From the NCBI GenBank assembly GCA_003280135.1, contig QCFW01000001.1:1-64000 (forward strand): a stretch of DNA of 64,000 nucleotides, in the 5' to 3' direction. The stretch comes from Prochlorococcus sp. AG-363-N16 (GTDB lineage Bacteria > Cyanobacteriota > Cyanobacteriia > PCC-6307 > Cyanobiaceae). Of this stretch, positions 34,203 to 62,216 are shown in pieces (positions within the stretch are counted from its first letter, which is position 1; every line of letters begins with the position of its first letter). The notes under the pieces were generated by a model. The model saw only the letters and a program-made list of their open reading frames with translations, was not told the origin of the DNA and ran no database searches. Position numbers and translations under genes: made by a program.

Positions 34203-34227
34203 AAAAAGCCGCCAAAGGCGGCTTTTT
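34203..34227. terminator. Bidirectional intrinsic terminator
   Basis: AAAAAGCCGCC (34203-34213), loop AAA, GGCGGCTTTTT (34217-34227): a perfect 11-bp stem with an A-run before and a T-run after, so it can end transcription from both sides. Confidence 0.85.
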
Positions 34228-34424
34228 GGGAACTAGGGCAAGTGTTTCCTTGTTTCCACTGCCGGAGAGTTCCTTCTCCTCACATTAGGTATTATTACCA
34301 GTATCCTATAGATTGTCCACCATTATCTTGAACTGCTGACAAGGCATGAGAAGAGAAGAGGTGCCTATTCTTTTCTTGGTTTGCTGGAATTATTTGCTCT
34401 TTTGCGGTGGAAAAGTAAATGTAA

Positions 34425-35331: not shown

Positions 35332-35405
35332 CGGGGCGTGGCGCAGCTTGGTAGCGCGGGTGCTTTGGGAGCACTAGGTCGCAGGTTCGAATCCTGTCGC
35401 CCCGA
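35332..35405 (+). tRNA. tRNA-Pro(UGG), island integration target
   Basis: The sequence begins CGGGGCGTGGCGCAGCTTGG and folds as a canonical cloverleaf. The anticodon is TGG in CTTTGGGAG, the T arm CAGGTTCGAATCCTG, the acceptor CGGGGCG/CGCCCCG and discriminator A. The 52 bases from the anticodon loop to just past the 3' end are repeated at 37801 and 40478, marking it as the attachment target. Confidence 0.96.
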
Positions 35406-35414
35406 CTAGGTTTT
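35363..35414 (+). repeat. att-like repeat, parental copy (3' half of tRNA-Pro)
   Basis: From CTTTGGGAGC in the anticodon loop to TAGGTTTT just after the tRNA. The same 52 bases recur exactly at 37801-37852 and with one mismatch at 40478-40530. A repeat that starts at the anticodon loop is typical for tyrosine-recombinase integration. Confidence 0.85.
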
Positions 35415-35434
35415 CAAGATCTCAAGATGAGAAA

Positions 35435-35457
35435 GGGGCGCTGTAGGGGGCGCTAGA
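35435..35457 (+). repeat. Tandem GGCGCT element after tRNA-Pro
   Basis: Two direct copies of GGGCGCT separated by GTAG lie about 30 bases downstream of the tRNA. A 23-bp stretch here is identical to 37652-37674, and related paired elements follow the other tRNA fragments. Confidence 0.7.
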
Positions 35458-35509
35458 TTATTGCAATAGCCCTCTATAACTTGGTTCTTTTTGACAGGTA
35501 TTTATTTAG

Positions 35510-35842
35510 TCAAGGATTATTTGTATAAATAGCCAGCCCAACCGCAAGAGCTATTGCAACTCCACAGCCAATCCAAACGACCGTCATCCATGGGAATGGT
35601 CTTGATAATCTTTTAGTACATTCATCTAATTGGCTTTTGGTGAGTCGGAAATATTCACTTTGAGGAAGGCGAACATCTTTATATTTTCGATGCAGCTCCT
35701 TTTCAATCTCTCGGTAATCAGTTCTTTTTAGAGTTCTTATGATTTTGTCGGGTTTTAGCTCCTTCATTCGACGTTGAAGGTTCTTGGTTGTACCAATTTT
35801 ATGTAGATCTCCGTTTTGGATGAGATAAATGATGCCAGCCAT
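35510..35842 (-). CDS. GIY-YIG/T5orf172-type protein with a C-terminal membrane helix
   Basis: The 110-aa protein begins MAGIIYLIQNGDLHKIGTTK and continues RRMKELKPDKIIRTLK, which resembles the small T5orf172/Mug113 branch of the GIY-YIG nuclease superfamily. The last ~30 residues form one membrane helix (VVWIGCGVAIALAVGLAIY). The GIY-YIG core is short, and catalysis is uncertain. It is the first gene after tRNA-Pro. The membrane tail is unusual for a nuclease. Confidence 0.6.
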   Translation of the reverse strand: MAGIIYLIQNGDLHKIGTTKNLQRRMKELKPDKIIRTLKRTDYREIEKELHRKYKDVRLPQSEYFRLTKSQLDECTKRLSRPFPWMTVVWIGCGVAIALAVGLAIYTNNP

Positions 35843-35865
35843 AATAACTATCCTCCAATTACTTT

Positions 35866-36027
35866 CTAGCTGTTTCTAATCAGGATTCTTCGGATAGTGT
35901 CGAAACAGATTTTGATTACTAATGGAAGAATTAACCAAAAGAGTGGAAGAACTTGAGAGGAGAGTCCAGCATTTAGAAGCAGTGCTGCGATACCAAGCAA
36001 GGAAAAGCAAATAAGTTCTGTTCTCAT
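35866..36027 (-). CDS. Small membrane protein (53 aa)
   Basis: Minus-strand frame MRTELICFSLLGIAALLLNA with a second hydrophobic stretch LPLFWLILPLVIKICF. It directly follows the Trp-rich protein (stop TAG then ATG). A related frame (MNTDFICFFLLGIAGLLLNA) occurs after the second Trp-rich gene at 48285-48398. The opposite strand carries a coiled-coil frame over the same bases (see findings). Confidence 0.5.
   Translation of the reverse strand: MRTELICFSLLGIAALLLNAGLSSQVLPLFWLILPLVIKICFDTIRRILIRNS
35922..36014 (+). CDS. Candidate 30-aa coiled-coil peptide antisense to the membrane frame
   Basis: Frame MEELTKRVEELERRVQHLEA continuing to YQARKSK. It has a regular heptad of Leu/Val. In the paralogous region near 48.3 kb the matching plus-strand frame contains a stop, which argues against it. 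Confidence 0.25.
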   Translation: MEELTKRVEELERRVQHLEAVLRYQARKSK

Positions 36028-36255
36028 CTAGCTGCTGCAATCTTCATCTTTAGGCAATTGGAGCCATCCAGTGGTCCATTTTGAAGGATTTTTTAGTTCA
36101 TCCAAAGGAACTCGAATAAGAATTTCTTTGTTATTGACGGGGAAAAGCTCGACCCATCGTTGCTCTTTTTTGCCTCCATATTGCTTGACTTCAAAATGAC
36201 GATAGCCCTCCCTTTTGAAGGCTGATGTCCAAGCTTGGTTAGGTGGCCATCTCAT
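36028..36255 (-). CDS. Trp-rich small protein (TIGR02450/DUF2389-like), copy 1
   Basis: The 75-aa protein MRWPPNQAWTSAFKREGYRH has the WT..F......HF.V...R W.EL pattern of the short Trp-rich DUF2389/TIGR02450 family. A near-identical copy is at 48395-48628. The family is cyanobacterial with no known role. Confidence 0.68.
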   Translation of the reverse strand: MRWPPNQAWTSAFKREGYRHFEVKQYGGKKEQRWVELFPVNNKEILIRVPLDELKNPSKWTTGWLQLPKDEDCSS

Positions 36256-36318
36256 ATTCCCTTTCTAGCTGATTTATCTCAAGCTTTCATTTGGCCGCTA
36301 AGGCTGCATAATTCAGAT

Positions 36319-36801
36319 ATGAAACGCTTACTGATAGCACCGTTAATACTTGGATTTACTGCACCTGTTCAGGCGAGGCCTCCGGGTGTGAAACCAGATT
36401 TAAAAGTTGGACAATGCATTGAAACAACCGTTCAAAAGCTTTTTACAAGATGGCCTAAAGAATTTTATTCAGATGAGGTTATAGAAAAATATGGCGTAGG
36501 TTGGGAAGATCAAACAGGGATAATTAAGTTTTCAAATAATCTAACTGTTTATCTATACAGAAATCTAAAGGCTACAAATAGCAAATGGACTCCCCTCACA
36601 ACAAATGGCTCACTAGATTTTAAAGATGCAAAAAACATGTACCAAAATGGCGACAAAATAAAGGTATGTTTAGAATTTATCCCTACCGAATGTAGAAAGT
36701 TTGTTCCAGATGGCAGAGGGGAAATTTATTCGCTCACAAATCAAAGAACCAGAAAGACACATTATGGACATTACGGAAGGAACCAATGTGGAGGAGCATA
36801 A
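36319..36801 (+). CDS. Secreted hypothetical protein
   Basis: I start at MKRLLIAPLILGFTAPVQA (160 aa), a signal peptide of the MKRLL type common in this window; the track's start is 28 codons earlier, overlapping the divergent gene. The mature part has a Cys pair and ends with NQRTRKTHYGHYGRNQCGGA. No domain recognised. Starts the plus-strand island operon. Confidence 0.6.
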   Translation: MKRLLIAPLILGFTAPVQARPPGVKPDLKVGQCIETTVQKLFTRWPKEFYSDEVIEKYGVGWEDQTGIIKFSNNLTVYLYRNLKATNSKWTPLTTNGSLDFKDAKNMYQNGDKIKVCLEFIPTECRKFVPDGRGEIYSLTNQRTRKTHYGHYGRNQCGGA

Positions 36802-36807
36802 GAGACG

Positions 36808-37071
36808 ATGACTCCTAAAAAATTGACAAAAGAGCAACTAGCTCATCTTGAGGAGATTCGTAATTCATATCAGGAGTTACGTAAGCCAGCACCTGAGGGC
36901 TTAAGCGTAATACTGTCCGACCCCGAAGGTGTAATCGCATCAAAAGAAGAAAGAGAAAAACGTTGGGCAGCTGAGAAACTTAAAGCTAAAAAATTCAGAA
37001 AAAAAATAAGACGGTATCTATATGTAGCTTTGATAATTATTGGAGCTATTCTTGTGATCTTGAAAACTTAA
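36808..37071 (+). CDS. Helical protein with a C-terminal membrane anchor
   Basis: The 87-aa protein begins MTPKKLTKEQLAHLEEIRNS and ends with a membrane helix (YLYVALIIIGAILVILKT) after a Lys/Arg-rich region. It follows the secreted gene by 6 bases. Function unknown. Confidence 0.55.
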   Translation: MTPKKLTKEQLAHLEEIRNSYQELRKPAPEGLSVILSDPEGVIASKEEREKRWAAEKLKAKKFRKKIRRYLYVALIIIGAILVILKT

Positions 37072-37085
37072 GTCAAAACCAATAA

Positions 37086-37565
37086 ATGAAGCTCATAAGA
37101 AAAAGAATAAGCCAGGTATTAGACGGTTTATTTCCTCAATGGAATAAATACCCTGATAGATATATTTTGGGAGCCATCTTTCTTGTTTGGATTACTGAAG
37201 GACCTTTGGGGTATCTCGATAAAATCACTGTTCATAGCCATGTTCCTAGATATTCGCCACAAAATGCTGCAGAGAAATGCTTGGAAACAGTCAATGCTGC
37301 ATTAAAGGGGAAAGGGCCTGCAAGCTACGATTTTTCCATAGCAGAATCAAAGGGACCATTGATTGAAAGCGGATGTATTTATGACCAATGGGATAGGTGG
37401 GGTAGGAGATTTGATGGAAAATTTCATAGTTATATAGTTTTTAAAAATAAATACAAAGGAGGAAAAGAAGAGAGGTGGTTTATTAGTAGCTTCGCTGTTG
37501 ATAGACCATGGTGGGGGGGCAGACCAACAGCACCAATTCTTCACGACAGGATGAAAATTAAATAG
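37086..37565 (+). CDS. Membrane-anchored hypothetical protein
   Basis: The 159-aa protein has an N-terminal basic stretch and a helix (RYILGAIFLVWITEGPLGYL), then a globular domain with Trp-rich loops (IYDQWDRWGRRFDGKFHSY, RPWWGGRPTAP) and two Cys. No family recognised. Third gene of the 36.3-37.6 kb operon, just before an att-like site. Confidence 0.55.
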   Translation: MKLIRKRISQVLDGLFPQWNKYPDRYILGAIFLVWITEGPLGYLDKITVHSHVPRYSPQNAAEKCLETVNAALKGKGPASYDFSIAESKGPLIESGCIYDQWDRWGRRFDGKFHSYIVFKNKYKGGKEERWFISSFAVDRPWWGGRPTAPILHDRMKIK

Positions 37566-37626
37566 GGGGTCCCTCTGACGGAAAACCATTGTGGGTCGTC
37601 CGAAGGCTCGAAAAATTCAGACTGGT

Positions 37627-37644
37627 TCTCCCAAAGCACTAGGT
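37627..37644 (+). repeat. tRNA-Pro anticodon-arm fragment with inverted loop
   Basis: TCTCCCAAAGCACTAGGT. Read against tRNA-Pro, the right half (GCACTAGGT) matches directly, while CTCCCAAAGC matches the reverse complement of the anticodon loop. It is followed by the paired GGCGCT element at 37652. Confidence 0.55.
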
Positions 37645-37651
37645 GGCTGAG

Positions 37652-37674
37652 GGGGCGCTGTAGGGGGCGCTAGA
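37652..37674 (+). repeat. Tandem GGCGCT element, second copy
   Basis: Exact 23-bp copy of 35435-35457 (two GGGCGCT units separated by GTAG, ending AGA). The 38 bases normally found between the tRNA core and this element are missing here. Confidence 0.75.
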
Positions 37675-37800
37675 AAGTTCTAATCCCTTTAAATATGTTC
37701 TAATTTCTTGCGATATTGAGTCTCAAATCGATTTGCATGACTTCTTCTACTCCTTTGATAGCAATGCTTTTTGAGGATTCTCATCTTTTACGACCATGTC

Positions 37801-37852
37801 CTTTGGGAGCACTAGGTCGCAGGTTCGAATCCTGTCGCCCCGACTAGGTTTT
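37801..37852 (+). repeat. att-like repeat, internal copy (tRNA-Pro 3' half)
   Basis: 52 bases identical to 35363-35414, from the anticodon loop through the T arm and 3' end, with no 5' half, so it is not a functional tRNA. Another paired element (GTGCT AAAGGA GTGCT) follows at about 37875-37890. Confidence 0.9.
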
Positions 37853-38063
37853 GAAGGAATGGTAAAAATGGTTGTGCTAAAGGAGTGCTAAAAGCTTTTT
37901 GGGTATGACTGCTTTTTATGCGGACTGATATTGGTTAGCACTAATTTCGGGCCTTCGTACGACCCATATTAGAAAGCCTTATAAAGTACCTTGGTCAATA
38001 AAAAGGGACTGCAATAGCCCCTAAAGAAATCGACTGTCAACCGAGCTTTGACTATATCAAGGC

Positions 38064-38507
38064 CTAATCAACTTTGACAGGAAGAGTTGTTTTCTTGCCC
38101 TTAGCTCCTGCAGAAGCAACAAAAACCAGAGCCTCTTCATTACCATTATTTTCACAGTAATGAACTGTATCTTGAGGTGAAGCAAAGCTATCTCCGGGGC
38201 CTGCTTTTAGTACTTTTCCATCACTTGTTTCACAAGAAAGAGTTCCTCTTACTAAATACACAATCCCAGGTTGTGGATGGAAGTGAAGTGGAGTTTTAAA
38301 ACCAGGCTGAGCAGTTATTTTTTCGAGTTTCATTTGTGCTTGACCTCTTGGGTATTTAAATGAATCTCCATTCCATGATTCAGTTGCAGTAATAAGAGTC
38401 TCAATAACCACAGGTTCAATAGTCTTAGATGAATCTTTTTTTGATGTACAGGCTGCTATTGGGAAAATCATTCCAGCAGTAAGTGTAAAAAGGATAAATC
38501 GTTTCAT
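38064..38507 (-). CDS. Cupin-domain lipoprotein
   Basis: I start at MKRFILFTLTAGMIFPIAAC; the lipobox PIAAC makes a lipidated, membrane-anchored protein of 147 aa. The mature region is one cupin: PLHFHPQPGIVYLVRGTLSC with metal His, then GPGDSFASPQDTVHYCEN. The function could be a metal-binding or enzymatic sensor; substrate unknown. Its start is 69 bases from the divergent 51-aa gene. Confidence 0.72.
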   Translation of the reverse strand: MKRFILFTLTAGMIFPIAACTSKKDSSKTIEPVVIETLITATESWNGDSFKYPRGQAQMKLEKITAQPGFKTPLHFHPQPGIVYLVRGTLSCETSDGKVLKAGPGDSFASPQDTVHYCENNGNEEALVFVASAGAKGKKTTLPVKVD

Positions 38508-38575
38508 AGGATTAAGTAAGTCGCAGCGCAGAGCTTGTTGGCTCTCCATCGACACTAAAGCATTTTTTAAATCTA

Positions 38576-38731
38576 ATGAACAGCACTAAAGCGTCCCCGA
38601 AGGACGAGGTGATTACTTCTGTTTGCGAGTTGGTCGATCAGCAAGAAGCGGTAATCAAAAACCTCAAAGAACAACAACAAGCCCTTATTTATTTTTTAGG
38701 AGGTCTAACGATTATTTCTCTAATCTTTTGA
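38576..38731 (+). CDS. Small tail-anchored protein (51 aa)
   Basis: Not in the track. Frame MNSTKASPKDEVITSVCELV, a helical Gln-rich region (LVDQQEAVIKNLKEQQQAL), then a membrane tail IYFLGGLTIISLIF. The same tail is found alone at 44021-44062, which supports it as a real island gene with a dispersed fragment. Confidence 0.6.
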   Translation: MNSTKASPKDEVITSVCELVDQQEAVIKNLKEQQQALIYFLGGLTIISLIF

Positions 38732-38822
38732 AACTGCTTTTCCAAAAAGCGAATAACAGAATCAGGAATGGGTTTATTGATAGGCATGATTATTTGCCTA
38801 CAACACAGTGGAAACTCTTTAA

Positions 38823-39017
38823 TCATGGGGGGTTACATTCTCCTTCCCAATTTTTTCCTTCTTTTTCACATGCTTCAGCACTTGGCATTTCTATTTTTTC
38901 CAAATTTCCAAAAATCTTTGTATGTGTACCCCAAGCAATAATCAACCAATGACTCTAGGCATTAGCGGTACTAGGGAGTGCAAGTGCAGCGATTATCGGA
39001 AGTAATAAGCTTTTCAT
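38823..39017 (-). pseudogene. Small secreted protein gene with an in-frame stop after the signal peptide
   Basis: The minus strand encodes MKSLLLPIIAALALPSTANA, then TAG, then an open frame of 43 codons: SHWLIIAWGTHTKIFGNLEK to CNPP. The signal peptide and mature part are in the same frame and match the small secreted family of picocyanobacteria. The single TAG at 38955-38957 breaks it. It may be a point mutation or an error; read-through is not shown. Confidence 0.6.
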
Positions 39018-39024
39018 ATTTGAA

Positions 39025-39174
39025 TTATGCAGCCTTAGCAGCTTTATTTCTTTTAGCGTAAAGATCAGCCCAATGAGTCTTCTGCCTTTCTCGCGCTTGT
39101 TCAAAGGCTTTGTCAGTAGTAGCTGCTGATGCCCATGGATAAGCTTTTATATTAGAGTCCAGTCCATGTTCCAT
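39025..39174 (-). CDS. Small Ala-rich hypothetical protein (49 aa)
   Basis: Frame MEHGLDSNIKAYPWASAATT, ending AKRNKAAKAA. Helical and Ala-rich, with a Trp in HWADL. Too short for the track. No function seen. Confidence 0.45.
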   Translation of the reverse strand: MEHGLDSNIKAYPWASAATTDKAFEQARERQKTHWADLYAKRNKAAKAA

Positions 39175-39250
39175 TGATTCAGCGACACTTCGACTTAGAG
39201 ATCAATCAGAGCAATGGATATAAACTTGTTTTGTTTGACAGAGATCAGAA

Positions 39251-39865
39251 ATGAACATAACCAAGTTTCTATTAATAGATGCCTCATTAATGCTGATAGG
39301 AGTTCCTTTGTTTTTGATAATTCAAAGTAGCAAAGCTAAAGCTTCTCTAATAGAAAATCTGAATGATGCTGGATCGGTAAAGCTGTTTTCTATGAATCTT
39401 CCTGGTAACAAAGAATTGGCGGAACTTGAAAAAGTGGCCAAGAGGGATGGAAGTGGAATTGAACCTCACTCTTTGATTGGCCTTTGGAAATTTTTTTCTG
39501 TATGGAAGCAAAAAAATGACAATGAAGATTTAATTTCAAGTTCTTTCCTTAGGCTTTTTGTCGCAAGCTTAGAGATCAAAAAAGATAAATCCAATCAGTT
39601 ATTTATTACTAATTCCATCCAGTTTGGATCGCTATCAATCCGATTTAGAGGTTATGGCAAGGTGAAAGGAAAACAACCGTTATTACCTTTCTATTTTGAT
39701 TGCATAGAACTTAAGGCTGGCTCAAGGATTTTATTTAGTAGATCTTTGGAGAAACCAGAAGAAGAAAACATGCCTTTTTTTGCATTGATTTCGATAGAAG
39801 AAAATGGCAAATGGCTTTCAGCAAGAGGGCGTGGAGGTGGACTTGCCCTTTGGGTAAAAGGTTAA
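39251..39865 (+). CDS. Hypothetical protein, possibly fibrillin/PAP-like
   Basis: The 204-aa protein has an N-terminal hydrophobic segment (LLIDASLMLIGVPLFLII). Its C-terminal half includes SIRFRGYGKVKGKQPLLPFY and ALISIEENGKWLSARGRGGG, which is reminiscent of beta-barrel plastid-lipid-associated (fibrillin-type) proteins, but I cannot confirm it. It should be membrane-attached. Confidence 0.5.
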   Translation: MNITKFLLIDASLMLIGVPLFLIIQSSKAKASLIENLNDAGSVKLFSMNLPGNKELAELEKVAKRDGSGIEPHSLIGLWKFFSVWKQKNDNEDLISSSFLRLFVASLEIKKDKSNQLFITNSIQFGSLSIRFRGYGKVKGKQPLLPFYFDCIELKAGSRILFSRSLEKPEEENMPFFALISIEENGKWLSARGRGGGLALWVKG

Positions 39866-39892
39866 AATTAATCTTCTAAAACTTAAATGCCG

Positions 39893-39941
39893 CAGTGTTT
39901 TGGGGTACTAGGTTGCAGGTCCCAATACTGTCGCCCCGATC
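39893..39941 (+). repeat. Degenerate tRNA-Pro 3' fragment
   Basis: Compared with the tRNA, CAGTGTTTTGGGGTACTAGG then TTGCAGGTCCCAATACTGTC then GCCCCGA: several substitutions but the same layout. It looks like an old att site. Confidence 0.55.
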
Positions 39942-39957
39942 AGTATTGGCAAGGGAT

Positions 39958-40131
39958 CTAAGCGAAGGGTAAAATAGGGTCAAAACTTACTTTGCAAATA
40001 TTCCCTTTCTTGCCGCACCAAACTTCAAATGTTTGCTTTTGATATTTAGTATTCTCTGCCTCTTTTAAATCAGTATTAACAGTAGTAGGGAGTGCAATAG
40101 CTACAAGTAGTGGAAGTAGTAAGCGTTTCAT
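39958..40131 (-). CDS. Small secreted protein (57 aa)
   Basis: Frame MKRLLLPLLVAIALPTTVNT, then a mature part with a Cys pair (WCGKKGNICKVSF). The signal peptide closely resembles those at 38823-39017 and 43683-43946. Its start overlaps the stop of the upstream gene (ATGA). Confidence 0.6.
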   Translation of the reverse strand: MKRLLLPLLVAIALPTTVNTDLKEAENTKYQKQTFEVWCGKKGNICKVSFDPILPFA

Positions 40132-40316
40132 TTCTTTGCTTTCTTTAGCCCAAGCATTTCTGCCATTTTGCCAGTAAAAGTAAAATAGCCAATTGCTCCA
40201 ATAAACAATAAAAACGCAATCAGATTTGGAACTATCCCTCCAATAATTTGAGCTTCTCCAAAACTTAGAAACATGATCACTACAAATACCCTTGCCCAGT
40301 TATCAGTAAAGCTCAT
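40128..40316 (-). CDS. Small membrane protein (62 aa)
   Basis: I start at MSFTDNWARVFVVIMFLSFG; two membrane segments follow (VFVVIMFLSFGEAQ and LIAFLLFIGAIGYFTF). ATGA overlaps both upstream and downstream genes. The track's version adds ten residues. Confidence 0.6.
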   Translation of the reverse strand: MSFTDNWARVFVVIMFLSFGEAQIIGGIVPNLIAFLLFIGAIGYFTFTGKMAEMLGLKKAKK

Positions 40317-40447
40317 TTGCTTAGCCCTGAGAAGAAAAAGAACCAAGTAAAGACAATCACGTTTAATGCAACTGTTAAAGAGATTGCAATGACCTTGAAA
40401 GTTTTCCCAACTTCTTCGGTCTTTGGATTTAATTTGACTCTTGCCAT
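40313..40447 (-). CDS. Small single-helix membrane protein (44 aa)
   Basis: Frame MARVKLNPKTEEVGKTFKVI then a membrane helix (SLTVALNVIVFTWFFFF). First gene of a tight three-gene minus-strand group sharing ATGA junctions. It begins ~30 bases from the third att-like copy. Confidence 0.6.
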   Translation of the reverse strand: MARVKLNPKTEEVGKTFKVIAISLTVALNVIVFTWFFFFSGLSK

Positions 40448-40477
40448 ATATCTATTATGCCAATGACATTAAATTGT

Positions 40478-40530
40478 TTTGGGAGCACTAGGTCGCAGGT
40501 TCGAATCCTGTCGCCCTGACTAGGTTTTCA
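40478..40530 (+). repeat. att-like repeat, distal copy (tRNA-Pro 3' half)
   Basis: Matches 35363-35414 except one C-to-T change in CGCCCTGA. The similarity continues for ~75 bases after the tRNA fragment: a paired GTAGCT element (40550-40570) and CTCTATGACTTGGTTCTTTT resemble 35435-35495. It is the likely outer boundary (attR-like) of the island. Confidence 0.9.
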
Positions 40531-40655
40531 CAGTCTCAAATTGCGAAAAGGTAGCTTTAGGGGTAGCTAGATTGTTATAAGCTACCTCTATGACTTGGTT
40601 CTTTTTTAGTTAATTCTCTAAATCTGAGGAAGATGAATTCAGTCTTGAGCAAGAG

Positions 40656-46012: not shown

Positions 46013-46492
46013 ATGGGATCATTAACGATAAAAGTCTCAGCTAAAGCTGAGGCGATGATAGCAACTCTCCAGAAGGAGATTTTTAATCGTAGACGCAAGA
46101 AAGTTACTGCAGTGGGTGTAGTAGAGACTCTTGTAGAAAGCGGTGCGAAGTCTCAATCTGATAAGCGTTATGCTGCTTCTTGGAAGAACCTAATCAAGGA
46201 TATTGAGAAAGCGGCTAAAGCTTCAGAAGTACATGGCAATAAGCCAGCCAACATCTCAGCTGAAGAGTGGGCAATGCTAGTAGCTCACCGTACACGTAAG
46301 GGAGCTGCAGCTACCAAGAAACCAGCACCTAAGAAGCGTGTGGCAAAGAAAGCAACTGCTAAGAAAGCAGCACCTAAAAAGGCTGCAGCTAAGAAGACTG
46401 TTGCTAAGAAAGCAGCAGCAGCTCCGGCAGCAGTCAAGCCAAGAAAGGCTAGACGTGCAAAGAGAGCTAAGGCTCCAGCAGCAGCTAAGTAG
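46013..46492 (+). CDS. Histone H1-like Lys/Ala-rich DNA-binding protein, copy A
   Basis: The 159-aa protein has an N-terminal globular part (SLTIKVSAKAEAMIATLQKE, VTAVGVVETLVESGAKSQSD) with a conserved central domain, and a C-terminal ~55 residues of repeated AAPKKAAAKK units like histone H1 tails. Such proteins bind DNA non-specifically, and may condense the nucleoid. A close paralogue is at 61716-62216. Confidence 0.78.
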   Translation: MGSLTIKVSAKAEAMIATLQKEIFNRRRKKVTAVGVVETLVESGAKSQSDKRYAASWKNLIKDIEKAAKASEVHGNKPANISAEEWAMLVAHRTRKGAAATKKPAPKKRVAKKATAKKAAPKKAAAKKTVAKKAAAAPAAVKPRKARRAKRAKAPAAAK

Positions 46493-61694: not shown

Positions 61695-61715
61695 ATATTG
61701 GACTTAACTACTCAC

Positions 61716-62216
61716 ATGGGACAACTATCTATAAAAGTTTCAGCAAAGGCTGAGGCTATGATTGCCACTCTGCAGAAAGAGATTTTTAATCGCCGTCGTA
61801 AAAAAGTTACTGCACAAGGTGTAGTTGAAACTCTTGTTGAATCTGGTGCAAAATCTCAATCTGATAAGCGCTATGCAGCTTCTTGGAAAAACCTAATCAA
61901 GGATATAGAGAAAGCAGCTAAGCAATCAGAAGTACATGGCACTAAGCCAGCCAATGTTTCCGCTGAAGAATGGGCATTAATTGTTGCTTATCGTACGCGT
62001 AAGGGGGCGGCTGTAAAGAAGGCTGCACATAAAAAGCGTGTAGTAAAGAAGAAAACAACTGCAACGAAGGTGGCTCCTAAGAAAGTGACTTCTAAAAAAA
62101 TTGCTGGAAAGAAGACAACTGCCAAGAAGGTTTTAGTGAAGAAAGTAGCTCCAACTGTAGCTACTAAGCCAAGACGAGCCAGGAGAGCTAAAAGAGCTAC
62201 AGCCACTGCTAAGTAG
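61716..62216 (+). CDS. Histone H1-like Lys/Ala-rich DNA-binding protein, copy B
   Basis: I start at MGQLSIKVSAKAEAMIATLQ (166 aa); the track adds six codons. The first ~105 residues are close to copy A (46013-46492), and the C-terminal tail is a Lys-rich repeat (KKVTSKKIAGKKTTAKK) with more Val/Thr and less Ala than in A. It probably compacts DNA. The tail has diverged faster than the globular part. Confidence 0.78.
   Translation: MGQLSIKVSAKAEAMIATLQKEIFNRRRKKVTAQGVVETLVESGAKSQSDKRYAASWKNLIKDIEKAAKQSEVHGTKPANVSAEEWALIVAYRTRKGAAVKKAAHKKRVVKKKTTATKVAPKKVTSKKIAGKKTTAKKVLVKKVAPTVATKPRRARRAKRATATAK

Follow-up and report, generated by a model that had tools for sequence, protein, structure and literature searches.

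Paired direct repeats beside stacked tRNA-Pro copies in Prochlorococcus as probable arm-type sites of tyrosine integrases

Results

tRNA-Pro copies and paired repeats in the window

The window analysed here is a stretch of 64,000 nucleotides from Prochlorococcus sp. AG-363-N16 (contig QCFW01000001.1, positions 1 to 64,000), in which the part from 35332 to 40568 carries an intact tRNA-Pro(TGG) gene, further copies of its 3' part and a series of short tandem pairs. When an element has integrated into a tRNA gene, its P' arm follows a tRNA copy and its P arm precedes the next one, and the features are named in these terms.

35332..35405, + strand: intact tRNA-Pro(TGG) gene (ARAGORN and Rfam)
35364-35405, + strand: shared core, the 3' part of the intact tRNA-Pro from the anticodon loop, identical over 42 nt with the copies downstream; element 1 has its left attachment site here
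35435..35454, + strand: P'-arm pair of element 1, GGGGCGCT GTAG GGGGCGCT, copies at 35435 and 35447, period 12, with the tRNA end 29 nt before
35510..37565, no strand assigned: interior of element 1, with a GIY-YIG/T5orf172 protein (35510-35842, - strand), a DUF2389 protein (36028-36255, - strand) and three small ORFs; no recombinase
37622..37644, + strand: core-like sequence CTCCCAAAGCACTAGGT, immediately upstream of the P-arm pair of element 1; many P arms are laid out alike
37650..37671, + strand: P-arm pair of element 1, GGGGCGCT at 37652 and 37664, period 12, unit and orientation as at 35435
37802..37843, + strand: tRNA-Pro 3' fragment, identical (100%) over 42 nt; it is the right end of element 1 and at the same time the left end of element 2
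37844..39897, no strand assigned: remnant of element 2, with a cupin protein (38064-38555, - strand) and small ORFs
37874..37892, + strand: P'-arm pair of element 2, GTGCTAAAGGA GTGCTAAA, copies GTGCTAA(A) at 37874 and 37885, period 11, 30 nt beyond the fragment
37935..37941, - strand: third, inverted copy of the element 2 unit (TTAGCAC), near the fixed position (+63) that it has in locus L093
39898..39939, + strand: degenerate tRNA-Pro fragment (83%), a decayed junction with no adjoining pair
40478..40519, + strand: tRNA-Pro 3' fragment (98%), left end of element 3
40550..40568, + strand: P'-arm pair of element 3, GGTAGCT TTAGG GGTAGCT, copies at 40550 and 40562, period 12, 30 nt beyond the fragment

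The first-pass annotation of this DNA had described tandem pairs at 35435, 37652, about 37875 and 40550, and all four are there. It had also placed each of them about 30 bases after a tRNA fragment, which holds for three, lying 29-30 nt past the tRNA-Pro 3' ends at 35405, 37843 and 40519. The fourth, at 37652, is instead a P-arm pair, 150 nt upstream of the fragment at 37802. As this pair has the same unit as that at 35435, the two mark the two ends of one 2.4-kb element (element 1). Identity between the intact gene and the fragments runs over 42 nt from the anticodon loop to the tRNA 3' end, and strand crossover presumably takes place inside this shared core. For the remnant of element 2, no P-arm partner was found, nor any recombinase in 37844..39897; its unit is also present in the complete element L093. 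No P-arm partner of element 3 was found in the window either, and the far end of this element has therefore been lost or has decayed.

Some other features of the region were noted by the way. An inverted repeat seen by eye (GGGTCGTCCGAAGGCTCGAAA at 37591-37611 and TTTCGGGCCTTCGTACGACCC at 37946-37966) encloses the P pair, the fragment and the next P' pair. Near the island, at 34224-34289, lies a Cyano-1 small RNA (Rfam RF01701, 53.3 bits), and two similar proteins 16 kb apart (46013-46492 and 61698-62216) have a common N-terminal domain and lysine/alanine-rich tails.

Frequency, period and phase of the pairs

The first-pass annotation had named two outcomes as fatal to its own proposal: that such pairs be no rarer in shuffled or other sequence, or that other islands lack them. 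Clearly, neither holds. In a first set of flanks, an exact repeat of at least 7 nt was present in 107 of 143, against 9.4 expected from shuffles. When tRNA-Pro(TGG) 3' copies were gathered from many genomes of the same bacterial family, giving 229 distinct downstream flanks, 149 of these (65%) contained an exact repeat at least 8 nt long; among 6000 control windows taken at the same loci, the share was 3.7%. In 147 of the 149, the period is either 11 (104 flanks) or 12 (43). A third, inverted copy of the unit accompanies the pair in 52 of 153 flanks (against 2.3%). Within the whole window, exact repeats with a period of 11-12 and a length of at least 8 nt number only seven, and three of them are the pairs described here; the repeat at 40550, at 7 nt, is below this threshold. 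Across the 1.4-Mb genome to which the window belongs, the period-12 motif occurs only at its three places in the window and in one further, non-repeat match, and nearly all of its matches in 26 genomes fall inside the tRNA-Pro island. At locus L186 (about 1390-1490), the pair TTGGGAAAAAATTGGGAAAA comes after a tRNA-Pro-like fragment whose T arm is different, so the layout reaches a variant core.

The offsets at which the pairs start group near +30, +52 and +73 from the tRNA, that is, two helical turns apart. Tested for phase at 11 nt and at 22 nt, these offsets gave p of about 1e-38 and 1e-51, respectively, values that are optimistic because related flanks were treated as independent.

A place 30-80 nt beyond a tRNA would suit a signal acting at the RNA level, such as a terminator or processing signal, and two of the copies in the window have weak inverted partners (40580 and 37935). 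We nevertheless hold this explanation to be highly improbable, as the pair is a direct and not an inverted repeat and is also found upstream of fragments, while 58 other tRNAs (from this genome and one relative) have no such pair at +25 to +80. Moreover, a scan for consensus terminators found none at the pairs, and a terminator, where one is seen, lies between the tRNA and the pair, as in 46 of the 91 flanks belonging to the +52 and +73 classes and in none of the 72 with +30; on these grounds the notion that the pair and its inverted copy together form a terminator was dropped.

Matching units at the two ends of an element

In 42 of 60 elements, the P-arm window before the following tRNA fragment contains the unit of the P' arm again, oriented alike, compared with 3.2% when units are swapped between elements and 0.85% in interior windows. 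In the remaining 18 of 60 there is no matching P pair, either because the site has decayed or because the element really ends elsewhere than at the tRNA fragment. The P-arm pairs, too, are helically phased (67 integrase loci). Such matching at both ends is how the P and P' arms of a tyrosine-integrase attP are laid out.

One subclass of integrases departs from this layout in that its P pair is inverted rather than direct. In this subclass (L173-L181, L214-L235 and others), the inverted pair, for example TTCCACG..CGTGGAA, lies about -160 to -90 before the fragment, and related P' arms carry direct period-12 pairs of the same unit.

Other short sequences recur in the arms. Directly upstream of the P pair is a core-like sequence, GAGCACTAGGT and variants of it, seen at 37622-37644 in the window and at L077, L079, L180, L191 and other loci. 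At least 9 of its 11 positions are matched in 13 of 22 tested P arms, where about 0.6 would be expected, and it may be an extra core-type site. TCTCA/TGAGA motifs lie between the tRNA copy and the pair in 50% of P' arms (14% after shuffling), and AGACTCA/AGTCTCA near -83 in P arms; both are candidate sites of a directionality factor or a host protein.

Integrases beside the sites

A strict regular expression for the catalytic motif missed the integrases, which were recovered by a family search and then by a profile built from 13 integrases found beside these sites. The profile has matches in 375 of 400 genomes of the family at E up to 1e-12, a threshold that also lets in a more distant chromosomal recombinase of most genomes. 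In 108 of 137 distinct matches there is a tRNA-Pro-like fragment near the start of the gene, with the gene reading away from the fragment and the P pair between them. One complete autonomous element (L346, 9.1 kb) consists of tRNA-Pro, a P' pair, a 454-aa integrase, a P pair of the same unit about 20 nt in front of the integrase start, and a fragment. The period-12 class was at one stage thought to have no integrase of its own, an idea that was rejected when the profile of a related clade found three.

The integrases have the conserved catalytic residues of tyrosine recombinases and match PF00589, and a structure model aligns with the Tn1549, P2, XerH and lambda integrases (Z 11.7-12.8). In the model, the N-terminal domain is an alpha-beta-beta-beta-alpha unit, separate from the core-binding and catalytic domains. 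When the fold of this domain was searched in isolation, no arm-binding protein stood out as a clear relative: the best matches were unrelated proteins, and the HAI7 arm domain was matched with only Z 3.1 (73 aligned, 3.9 A). Some genomes also have recombinases of about 200 aa, too short to include an N-terminal arm domain and partly near long integrases (G150:C6:15606 in L096, G177:C5:12060 in L139, G177:C3:73836, G019:C3:90028 and G028:C1:83162).

The unit follows the N-terminal domain of the integrase

The first-pass annotation had proposed that covariation of the unit with the recombinase clade be examined, and this covariation is indeed found, located in the N-terminal domain. Among 67 integrases with a direct P pair, the partial correlation of unit distance with N-terminal distance, the core-binding and catalytic distances being held constant, is 0.29 (0 of 300 permutations), while those of the core-binding and catalytic domains are 0.07 and 0.00. 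Where catalytic domains are at least 80% identical, identity in the N-terminal domain is 88% for integrases with the same unit and 63% for those with different units. Thus, the unit tracks the N-terminal domain of the integrase and not its core-binding or catalytic domains.

The closest comparison is that of the integrases of L276, L277 and L278, which are 92-93% identical and are associated with the units GGGGAGCT, GGGTAGCT and GGGGCGCT, respectively. Of the 23 columns that make up one N-terminal hairpin, 10 are variable, as are 24 of the 341 other columns (Fisher p 6.5e-6); in the model, this hairpin falls in the first strands of a three-stranded sheet.

Related integrases and the arms next to them are inherited together, and part of the covariation is therefore descent; comparing domains with one another lessens this effect without removing it. 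A more radical view is that shared descent or repeat slippage is all there is, the pairs being functionless parts of old duplicated flanks. The flanks 35361-35492 and 40475-40606 agree at 83%, and common origin does account for part of their resemblance. As a full account, however, descent or slippage is very unlikely, given that the sequence of the unit changes while period, orientation, phase and the match among four copies are kept, and that L276, L277 and L278 differ from one another in both copies of the unit, with most of the protein changes located in the N-terminal hairpin.

We also considered whether elements within one genome are forced to differ in unit, and rejected this. Units are common to elements of one genome in 11.1% of cases and in 5.3% between genomes; with sharing somewhat commoner within genomes, we claim no rule of exclusion.

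Elements without an integrase

Neither a search for family PF00589 nor the integrase profile gave a match anywhere in the assembly to which the window belongs, which is 82% complete. Element 1 thus has both pairs and the fragment, with the integrase absent from this assembly. In the period-12 class, many elements have both pairs and no integrase. The units of the window do have integrase counterparts in other genomes, namely at L278 (element 1), L093 (element 2) and L277 (element 3). The natural reading is that integrase-less elements would be mobilised in trans by an integrase with a matching unit.

One integrase-less element of 8.2 kb with matched period-12 pairs (L073, 3191-10369) has genes that, named by eye from sequence, appear to be phoB, phoR, pstS, a chromate-type transporter, an MFS transporter, GAPDH and an ArsR-type regulator (arsR). 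At the other extreme are mini-elements of 221 bp (L097, 439-660) and 228 bp (L068, 4933-5161), where the two tRNA copies have a single pair in common, the product to be expected if the P' and P pairs of a longer element had recombined with each other.

Discussion

The pairs are very probably double arm-type sites for the N-terminal domain of a tyrosine integrase of the lambda/L5 type, with units specific to each element group and one tRNA-Pro core. That they are arm-type sites of several related elements that used one tRNA was already suggested by the first-pass annotation, and it is the best-supported reading, in view of the matches at both ends (42 of 60), the helical phase, the adjoining integrase gene and the covariation with the N-terminal domain. 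Strands would be exchanged at one core common to all elements, comprising the anticodon loop and the 3' half of tRNA-Pro. Each element group would have its own arm unit of 6-9 bp, present twice in the P' arm (+30, +52 or +73 relative to the tRNA) and twice in the P arm (about -115, -127 or -150 relative to the next fragment), where an integrase gene, if there is one, would start just after the pair. Since both pairs are in helical phase with the core, arm-bound and core-bound integrase could be bridged in one complex. With the core common to all, it would be the arm unit that decides which integrase acts on which of the stacked elements, and the elements of the window, having no integrase, would need one in trans from an element with the same unit. 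Binding of integrase to the pairs, recombination and mobilisation in trans are what the sequence patterns lead us to expect; the layout, the matching at both ends, the phasing, the covariation and the existence of same-unit integrases are observed.

The main competing explanation is that the pairs are sites not of the integrase but of an excisionase (directionality factor), which the first-pass annotation had also offered, or else of a protein that represses the integrase promoter. Excisionase sites are typically direct repeats, and the classical ones occur in one arm only. The direct orientation of our pairs and their position directly before the integrase start, as in L346, would fit such a role, and KplE1 offers a case of an attachment site that overlaps the promoter of its integrase (PMC2951348). 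However, the unit follows the N-terminal domain of the integrase and not other parts of the gene, the same pair is found in both arms, and both pairs are kept in elements that have no integrase. Because the identity of the unit follows the integrase and the sites are in both arms, we regard an excisionase or repressor as an unlikely owner of the pairs.

Taking the pairs as arm-type sites of the integrase, the arm unit may be an evolvable address: many integrase groups would coexist on one tRNA core by virtue of each reading its own unit and no other, and integrase-less cargo elements, one with apparent phoBR, pstS and arsenic-type genes, would be moved in trans by an integrase that shares their unit. 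We see this extended proposal as evenly poised between right and wrong. Address labels at both ends would help to account for the stacking and swapping of gene cargo at a single place in ocean cyanobacteria. If this is true, a 20-bp signature would predict which integrase moves which genomic island, recombinase-less islands included, and would yield exact element ends; movement of cargo would become directly testable in the most abundant photosynthetic cells of the ocean. The N-terminal domains and their DNA sites would also make up a large natural data set for the rules of arm-binding recognition.

The type of mechanism is already known from lambda, L5 and Cluster K phages. In the attP of the Cluster K mycobacteriophages CrimD, Anaya, Adephagia and Pixie, and in those of L5 and Giles, pairs of arm sites of about 11 bp flank a tRNA or tmRNA core, with the pairs of L5 and Giles in direct orientation; in Cluster K a terminator lies between the core and one pair, and the consensus of close relatives varies with residues at the integrase N-terminus (PMC3203893). 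The elements described here resemble these phages in having arm-site pairs on both sides of a tRNA core, an intervening terminator and a unit that changes with the integrase N-terminus. They differ in that one tRNA-Pro core is common to many elements with a very wide range of units, that the positions step by helical turns and that integrase-less elements have matched pairs. In KplE1, the attachment site of IntS, with its arm sites, overlaps the integrase promoter beside a tRNA and leads to self-repression (PMC2951348), whereas here the P pair is merely close to the integrase start codon. What looks new is the address-like diversity on one shared core, together with integrase-less cargo elements that have matching addresses.

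The tycheposons of Prochlorococcus (Hackl et al. 2023), as far as they are presented in PMC10872708 and PMC10187409, are tRNA-flanked cargo elements of marine picocyanobacteria with tyrosine recombinases. L346 is likewise a tRNA-flanked element with a tyrosine recombinase, and the window holds elements without one; all are probably tycheposons or close relatives of these. No link of such elements to arm-type sites was found in the literature searched, the founding tycheposon paper lying outside that search. In the biology of ICEs, cis-mobilisable elements (CIMEs) are elements that have attachment sites without a recombinase, stand in tandem at one tRNA and are thought to be moved by a relative. 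Element 1, with its attachment sites and no recombinase, is built in the same way. Unlike in CIMEs, the arm unit here predicts which integrase group could serve each element.
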